A stretch of 64,000 nt of DNA from an uncultured Gemmatimonadales bacterium (GTDB taxonomy: Bacteria > Gemmatimonadota > Gemmatimonadetes > Longimicrobiales > Gaopeijiaceae), in the NCBI GenBank assembly GCA_937919655.1, contig CALFPJ010000048.1, positions 1 through 64,000 on the forward strand, given 5' to 3'. Below are positions 43,234 through 44,548 of this stretch, one piece after another. Made by a program: the position numbers and the translations under genes. The notes below the pieces were generated by a model. That model did no database searches. It worked only from the letters and a program-made list of their open reading frames with translations, and was not told the DNA's origin. Every line of letters begins with the position of its first letter. The first letter of the stretch is position 1.

Positions 43234-43779
43234 ATTAGCCTGGCCGCCCCCATCCAGACGCTGCGGGTTCTTGCCGCGGCACGAATCACGCATGTCGTGG
43301 GGATCCCAGACAACGCCTCTGCTCCGCTCTTCGACTCGCTGAGCGGCAGCCCGAGCATCGAGCTCGTGACGGTCACTAGGGAGGGCGAAGCCTTCGCGAT
43401 CGCATCCGGGCTTTGGCTTGGAGGCGCTGCACCCCTCGTTGTCATTCAAAACACCGGCCTGCTCGAGTCCGGAGACAGCCTTAGGGGGACCGCAATCCGA
43501 ATGGCGGCTCCGATCCCGATCCTGATCACCGGGCGGGGCTACGAGAAGATGGCCGCGGCCGGGCTCACCCCGGACGAGCCCCGCACGAGCGCGCTCCTCA
43601 CGCGTCCGGACGTGGACTCTACGGCCCTGTTCACCGAGCCCACCCTAGCGGCCTGGGGCATCCCGTTCGAGCGCTGCTCCGAGGACGGCGACCCCGCAGC
43701 AACGCTGGAGCGCGCGATCAATGCAGCACGCTCGAACGAGCAACCCACGGCAGCGGTCATCGCACGAGCGCTGAACTAG
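43234..43779 (+). CDS. TPP-dependent decarboxylase, N-terminal (PYR-like) subunit
   Basis: About 181 residues resembling the alpha subunit of sulfopyruvate decarboxylase (ComD) and the N-terminal domain of phosphonopyruvate decarboxylase. ITHVVGIPDNASAPLFD opens the fold and VTREGEAFAIASGLWLGG carries the catalytic Glu that contacts the thiazolium. The first GTG (43297) would cut away helix 1 (PIQTLRVLAAARITHV); no ATG, GTG or TTG exists between the upstream stop at 43216 and that GTG. ATT 43234 (reading SLAAP after it, with GGAG just upstream) or CTG 43240 are the only candidates. The stop TAG is formed by the left CTAG copy of the mobile element. The TPP-binding half is at 43940. Confidence 0.75.
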   Translation: MSLAAPIQTLRVLAAARITHVVGIPDNASAPLFDSLSGSPSIELVTVTREGEAFAIASGLWLGGAAPLVVIQNTGLLESGDSLRGTAIRMAAPIPILITGRGYEKMAAAGLTPDEPRTSALLTRPDVDSTALFTEPTLAAWGIPFERCSEDGDPAATLERAINAARSNEQPTAAVIARALN

Positions 43780-43940
43780 TGTCCTTCCCCAGAAGTTCGT
43801 TCGGCACCGAGAGTGTCGATGCCCCGCGCTGGCAAGGCGCGACGACAAGGAACAGCAGCGCTACTGGGCGGAGGAGCGACGAAGCTAGCGTGGATGCAGC
43901 GGCGCTCGAATGCAAACGAACTTCTGGGACAGGGCACTAG
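43776..43940. mobile_element. MITE-like element with 22-bp inverted ends and CTAG duplication
   Basis: A 157-bp element (43780-43936) ends in 22-bp inverted repeats (43780-43801 and 43915-43936) that match at 19 positions and share the inner 14 bases CCCAGAAGTTCGTT. It is flanked by direct CTAG copies (43776-43779, 43937-43940), the expected target duplication of several IS5/IS427-like transposases. It has no coding capacity of its own, so it would need a transposase in trans. Removing it and one CTAG restores a gap-free junction between the decarboxylase subunits (TAGTG). Internal sequence is GC-rich and partly self-complementary. Confidence 0.75.
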
Positions 43941-44548
43941 TGTTGACGCGCGCCCAACTTCTCGATCCGCTCGCTCGCCTTCGAACGAATGAAGTCGTCG
44001 TGACCACAATGAGCGTGACGCGCCCCTGGGGACGCATCTCGGATCACGATCTCGACTTCGCATCTGCGGACAGTGCTATGGGGCACGCCGCGGACCTGGC
44101 GTTGGGCATCGCTTTGGCGCGTCCGGATCGGCGTGTCATCTGCTTGAACGGGGACGGCAGTATGCTCATGACCCTGGGCACGTTGGCCACCGTGATCGGT
44201 ACGGGCGTCACGAACCTTATTCTCTTCGTGGTCGACAACGGCACGTACGAAATCACCGGCAATCAGCCGTTAGCCGCGGCCGCAAGACTGGACCACGGTG
44301 CCATGGCGAGGGCTGCGGGCTGGACGAGCGTGCATCGTTTCGATGACCCTCGCGCATACGTGACGGCTCTGCCGTCGATCCTCGCAGAGCCGGGACCGAC
44401 GTTCGTGCACGTGCTCGTGGAGCCCGGGACCGAGGGGCCTATCGGCCGCACGCCGTCCGAAGAAGCGCGTTACCTGCGCGTGTCTCTCGCGGAGTGGTCG
44501 CTTGTACTGAAAGCGGCCCTAGCTGCAGACCCGCGCGCGGGCACGTAG
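43940..44548 (+). CDS. TPP-dependent decarboxylase, C-terminal (TPP-binding) subunit
   Basis: A 202-residue subunit like ComE of sulfopyruvate decarboxylase or the C-terminal domain of phosphonopyruvate decarboxylase. LNGDGSMLM to VVDNGTYEI is the GDG-N motif that holds the magnesium-diphosphate of thiamine diphosphate; DSAMGHAADLALGIALARPDR precedes it. Start is GTG 43940, whose first base belongs to the right CTAG copy; the family begins at about this residue (TRAQLLDPLARLR). A longer frame to ATG 43910 would use element sequence. It should decarboxylate a 2-oxo acid together with the alpha subunit; the exact acid is not known. Confidence 0.85.
   Translation: MLTRAQLLDPLARLRTNEVVVTTMSVTRPWGRISDHDLDFASADSAMGHAADLALGIALARPDRRVICLNGDGSMLMTLGTLATVIGTGVTNLILFVVDNGTYEITGNQPLAAAARLDHGAMARAAGWTSVHRFDDPRAYVTALPSILAEPGPTFVHVLVEPGTEGPIGRTPSEEARYLRVSLAEWSLVLKAALAADPRAGT

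Follow-up and report, generated by a model that had tools for sequence, protein, structure and literature searches.

MITEs are usually recognised by their conserved ends, and their interior tolerates change. Among described elements of the IS630/Tc1-mariner group, ISY100 inserts into TA and duplicates it (PMC2170065), and a preference of IS630 for TA within 5'-CTAG-3' is attributed to Tenzen and Ohtsubo (1991) as cited in PMC2170065. RNase III cutting has been reported for the Correia elements of Neisseria (PMC2649163). A literature search for MITEs in Gemmatimonadetes gave nothing related. Here we describe a 159-bp element at 43779-43937 of the window, the 64,000-nt stretch of DNA that was analysed, which belongs to a genome of 3.77 Mb in 114 contigs. 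The element is located between the TAG stop (43777-43779) of an alpha-subunit gene and the GTG start (43940-43942) of a beta-subunit gene, the two products being sulfopyruvate-decarboxylase-like (junction region 43776-43940). As read from the sequence, it has terminal inverted repeats of ~23 bp and TA flanks, with CTAG at either junction (43776-43779 and 43937-43940) and 157 bp separating the two CTAGs. The arms at 43775-43801 and 43915-43941 are 27 nt long, with 89% complementarity between them. Both contain the same inner CCCAGAAGTTCGTT, which is absent elsewhere in the window (0.23 matches expected by chance). The features of the locus are as follows.

43237 to 43779, plus strand: gene for the alpha subunit, with the N-terminal domain of TPP enzymes (PF02776) and similarity to sulfopyruvate/phosphonopyruvate decarboxylase (TIGR03845 at E 8.5e-17, short of the cut-off); conserved beside beta in relatives
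43776 to 43779, no strand: left CTAG junction, made of C, TA (target) and G (element base 1), the TA being assigned from copies with GTAG, TTAG, CTAA and CTAT junctions
43779 to 43801, plus strand: left terminal inverted repeat, GTGTCCTTCCCCAGAAGTTCGTT
43802 to 43914, plus strand: conserved hairpin core (model R1; covariance-model match of 107.4 bits, and structure)
43910 to 43912, plus strand: ATG within the element in the beta frame, which would add MQTNFWDRAL; a possible but unsupported alternative start
43915 to 43937, minus strand: right terminal inverted repeat, GTGCCCTGTCCCAGAAGTTCGTT as read on the minus strand
43931 to 43934, plus strand: AGGG within the right end, 5 nt upstream of the GTG start; Shine-Dalgarno-like, of putative function
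43937 to 43940, no strand: right CTAG junction, made of C (final element base), TA (duplicate) and the G of the GTG start
43940 to 44548, plus strand: gene for the beta subunit, with a GTG start and the C-terminal domain of TPP enzymes (PF02775; TIGR03297 at E 1.6e-31 and TIGR03846 at E 3.3e-31, each short of its cut-off); N-terminus aligned to relatives

Together, alpha and beta are nearest to sulfopyruvate/phosphonopyruvate decarboxylase, a candidate assignment from matches below the curated cut-offs. The start of alpha is uncertain: no in-frame ATG, GTG or TTG precedes the GTG at 43297, yet the similarity to relatives begins near 43237. The alpha homologues of three relatives (G001, G020 and G049) likewise seem to be without a usual start at the same place. 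Alpha possibly begins at an ATT or CTG, or its reading is continued from upstream.

The alpha and beta genes are adjacent in many relatives. In a genome of the same genus (G001), in which the element was not matched anywhere, the junction (L032) is empty and has a one-base TGA/ATG overlap (..CTTAACTGATGCTCACACGA.., reading CTT AAC TGA TG CTC ACA CGA). The identical one-base stop/start overlap, with nothing inserted, was found in four other genomes (L035, L036, L037 and L047). Removal of the element and one TA from the locus studied here gives CTG AAC TAG TG TTG ACG CGC, with the reconstructed junction AACTAGTG, which matches the empty junction of the relatives codon for codon, and the GTG of beta aligns with their initiator methionine (VLTRAQLLDPL against MLTRAQLLGPL). 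The alpha-beta spacing changed from -1 to +160 nt with the element. These results confirm that the element at the alpha/beta junction is a true insertion on a stop/start overlap, which damaged neither gene. An earlier note on this DNA had reconstructed a one-base overlap and pointed to strains lacking the element as the place to look for empty sites; the five relatives provide both.

Further copies of the element, the search for which the earlier note had also proposed, occur at more than 30 separate places in the same genome and in relatives across the Gemmatimonadota. BLAST gave 61 matches in the own genome, some of which are the second arm of one copy, and the copies are mostly 74-91% identical. 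Two end variants are present there, GTGTCCTG... and GTGTGGTG..., together with miniature versions of 59-68 bp. Single-end matches in this genome were considered as full-length IS and rejected, L198, L206 and L191 being miniature versions of about 60-70 bp and L209 and others truncated. Versions of 164-168 bp, with CTAG at most ends, were found in relatives from several families of the class. The exact core pattern was confined to Gemmatimonadota/Gemmatimonadetes or Longimicrobiales records when one genome per species (84,980 species) was searched. Two grounds on which the earlier note would have withdrawn its proposal are removed, as further copies exist and the 157 bp are not a fixed intergenic region in relatives. 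The element is short, multicopy and bounded by terminal inverted repeats, with no space for a transposase gene, and it has TA on either side and five empty junctions in relatives, which are the marks of a MITE. A stretch of ~20 bases beside a CTAG, ACTTCTTCAACAGCCTTCTAG, is common to the left flank of L007 and the right end of L022 and is probably a terminus belonging to a different repeat family of the own genome.

TA was observed at both ends in most copies, with CTAG preferred. The outer junction bases vary among copies (GTAG on the left in L009 and L010, TTAG on the left in L076, CTAA on the right in L100 and CTAT on the right in L080) and the inner G and C are constant. Because the outer bases vary while the inner ones stay, the inner G and C are the element's own and the duplication is TA. 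A 4-bp duplication of CTAG was rejected in favour of TA given the variable outer bases; the flanks described in the earlier note do stand at both junctions as CTAG, but only their TA is duplicated.

IS630-family transposase genes (PF13358) were detected in 17 of 59 sampled relatives. At the IS630 loci L149, L152, L154 and L163, inverted ends beginning CTA-GTG stand about 1150-1225 bp apart. The CTAG-flanked L152 end, GTGTAGTGTTGCAGAAGTCT, is identical to an element arm at 18 of its first 20 bases, and a single end at L161, GTGTCATGAGTTAGAAGTTC, is likewise identical to an arm at 18/20, its best match being the own-genome copy L016; in 2000 shuffles, the mean was 8.4 and the maximum 15 for L152, and the mean was 8.3 and the maximum 14 for L161. 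IS630 elements with unrelated ends (L148 and L164) showed no match to the element arms. The protein encoded at L152 is 365 aa long and combines an HTH domain with a DDE_3 domain. The L152 transposase gene (964-2061) seems to stop at a TAG that the flanking TA forms with the base after it, and its stop codon would therefore depend on the target site. In the 114 contigs of the own genome there was no match to PF13358 or to the L152 protein; the transposase is either missing from the assembly, since this many contigs may lack a multicopy IS, or lost, and the identity of the mobiliser is deduced from sister genomes. Thus, a full-length IS with the same ends, another check named in the earlier note, was found in sister genomes (L152, with a single end at L161) but not in the own genome. 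An origin of the core in the interior of an IS630 element was considered, and no convincing match to the core was obtained among the IS630 loci examined.

A TA duplication and ends matching full-length IS630-family elements of sister genomes characterise the element as IS630-type. We consider it about 90% probable that it is a non-autonomous IS630-type (Tc1/mariner-like) miniature, inserted at TA/CTAG on the stop/start overlap by a transposase supplied in trans, with intragenic copies lost by selection. The insertion, the empty site, the copies and the ends common with IS630 elements are direct observations, and mobilisation in trans would complete them: a trans-supplied transposase would have cut and pasted the element into the TA of the CTAG formed by the overlap of the alpha stop and beta start. 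The copies, empty sites and matching IS ends thereby uphold the earlier proposal of a MITE-like mobile element that preserved both reading frames.

The element is also a hairpin. A 166-nt stretch folds far better than its shuffles (z = -7.4 as RNA and -5.8 as DNA), and the base of the predicted hairpin (-91 kcal/mol) brings the alpha stop and the beta start together. In a 40-copy alignment (A1), 90.2% of cells in the arms are paired, double changes occur at 17 of 25 pairs and the covariation is 0.422, compared to 0.150 shuffled and at most 0.099 slid; in the core helices 92.8% are paired, with double changes at 20 of 26 pairs and a covariation of 0.310 compared to 0.139, and as the shuffles keep the relatedness among copies these figures show pairing and not its cause. 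As a strand comparison, G-U pairs were counted in 99 cells and A-C pairs in 18 (P = 0.08 by position), but in a structure chosen with an RNA model that permits G-U, and this bias was given no weight as evidence. The element lies in mixed orientations with respect to the genes that end at it (by eye) and therefore gives no sign of host-gene transcription of the element as a selected function. A search of Rfam returned nothing for L001 at E<=1 and nothing reaching the gathering score for eight other loci.

The pairing may be due to structural selection, to template switching between the arms or to transposase sites that have to match. If the matched arm changes arose by template switching (quasipalindrome correction, of the kind described in PMC7202029 and PMC8604942) rather than by structural selection, the arms would be expected to agree within a copy yet differ between copies, as they do, and the 17 doubly changed arm pairs would be accounted for. 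However, the internal loops of the core are mismatched and nearly invariant across families, and repeated correction should erase such mismatches. We therefore regard template switching as a serious contender with somewhat less than an even chance.

The core extends well beyond this genome. Its covariance model, R1, matched 35 of 150 genomes from the phylum, reaching at least 25 matches in a genome. It is borne on two unrelated end types, CTA-GTGT... and TA-GCAGYCCGTGGACAAA, and the latter is TA-flanked in several copies (L091, L236 and L239). G025 has tandem repeats of this core with other ends, on a 171-bp period (L091 491-1345 of G025:C1, and L092), as five copies between rpmF and plsX and two between rplC and rplD, and a CTAG-type copy stands after groEL. 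A core repeat of the TA-GCAGYCCGTGGACAAA type in the same genome (L095, about 434-1001; G025:C1) is apparently split by foreign sequence, with the start of an IS110-like gene (by eye) just downstream, and may have served as a target for another IS. A conserved core with differing ends is the reverse of the usual MITE pattern. It is conceivable, if rather unlikely, that the family is a phylum-wide mobile module whose ~113-nt core is selected as structured RNA or ssDNA, whose ends are exchanged among IS630-like transposases and which acts between operon genes as a translational or RNA-processing joint. What is new in the finding is the hairpin core, conserved across the phylum while its ends are exchanged; the insertion itself is tidy but ordinary. 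The family offers a set on which selection for structure can be weighed against homogenisation by template switching. The phylum is understudied, and the family is a candidate mobile RNA element from it.

Of 23 paired element copies, 9 (about 40%) stand exactly at coding-like stops, and the 79 other CTAGs in the window divide into 20 at coding-like stops, 45 inside genes and 14 elsewhere, the coding-like calls being approximate and made from frame length and codon-position GC. At least three copies in the own genome are on stop/start junctions. At L005, the element follows a TlpA-like gene and precedes a YbbR-like gene whose GTG overlaps the right CTAG, and at L198 a miniature element stands between CtaA-like and DUF420-like genes. 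The stop/element/start arrangement also occurs, or nearly so, in relatives at L064 and L085 (gene names at these four loci and at those of G025 come from reading of the translations). Because CTAG is rebuilt at both ends, a TAG stop on the left and any start on the right survive. On the IS630-type reading, the TA duplication and the terminal G and C of the element would recreate CTAG twice, keeping stop and start codons automatically, and selection would remove intragenic insertions, leaving copies at stops and between genes. Placement on a stop/start junction is thus ordinary for the element, and its share at stop codons is about what CTAG availability predicts. The exactness that the earlier note had called rare is not so: any insertion into C-TAG-TG keeps both codons, and the outcome recurs at L005 and L198. 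The alpha/beta site shows neatly how elements that target TA/CTAG can be harmless within operons.

A one-base stop/start overlap permits translational coupling. With the insertion, the alpha-beta mRNA would have gained a hairpin opening at the alpha stop and closing on the beta start, and the tie of beta translation to alpha may have changed in some way. The uncoupling proposed in the earlier note is one of several outcomes, as coupling may have been lost, kept or altered. Reduced or altered coupling is the most likely of three options and, on the predicted structure, has roughly an even chance; a negligible effect on coupling would be considerably less probable. Equally doubtful is that coupling was kept through the hairpin, with a ribosome at the alpha stop opening the base of the stem and exposing AGGG-CACTA-GTG. 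Such opening would fit a predicted mRNA structure in which the stop region and the start region of beta are paired, and an AGGG 5 nt upstream of the GTG, but that structure is a prediction, and the Shine-Dalgarno-like site belongs to the transposon end and recurs in other copies. A scan of 43700-44000 detected no sigma-70 promoter-like or terminator-like site.

An entire element that forms one imperfect hairpin with conserved internal loops would suit a REP/RAYT-like or other single-strand-transposed hairpin, but the TA flanks at both ends and the ~23-bp inverted ends common to IS630 elements make this very improbable; REP elements are not known to have such flanks or ends. A structured leader or attenuator native to the alpha-beta operon, with no insertion, would explain a highly stable fold (z = -7.4) precisely between both genes, but it is refuted, with hardly any probability left to it, because dozens of copies adjoin unrelated genes and five relatives are without the region at the same junction.

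Among known systems, the Chunjie MITE of Geobacter uraniireducens (Chen et al. 2008, cited in PMC10969869) is 235 bp compared to 159 bp for our element, a comparison made by description only. The Correia repeat enclosed elements (CREE) of Neisseria (PMC2649163) are similar in having a 153-157 bp class, inverted ends of ~26 bp, a conserved core, a TA target, many copies and a hairpin in mRNA. In contrast to our element, they are of other sequence and phylum and have promoters and an IHF site, no promoter being seen here. The CREE core end motifs CCGGTACGG and TCAGGACAA (PMC2649163) were not seen in the element, which places it outside the CREE, and its core spans several families and is borne with different ends. 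Compared to IS630 and Tc1-mariner elements such as ISY100 (PMC2170065), the element is without a transposase gene and its core was not found in the IS630 loci examined, but it shares with them the TA duplication, the CTAG target and inverted ends like those of IS630 in sister genomes.
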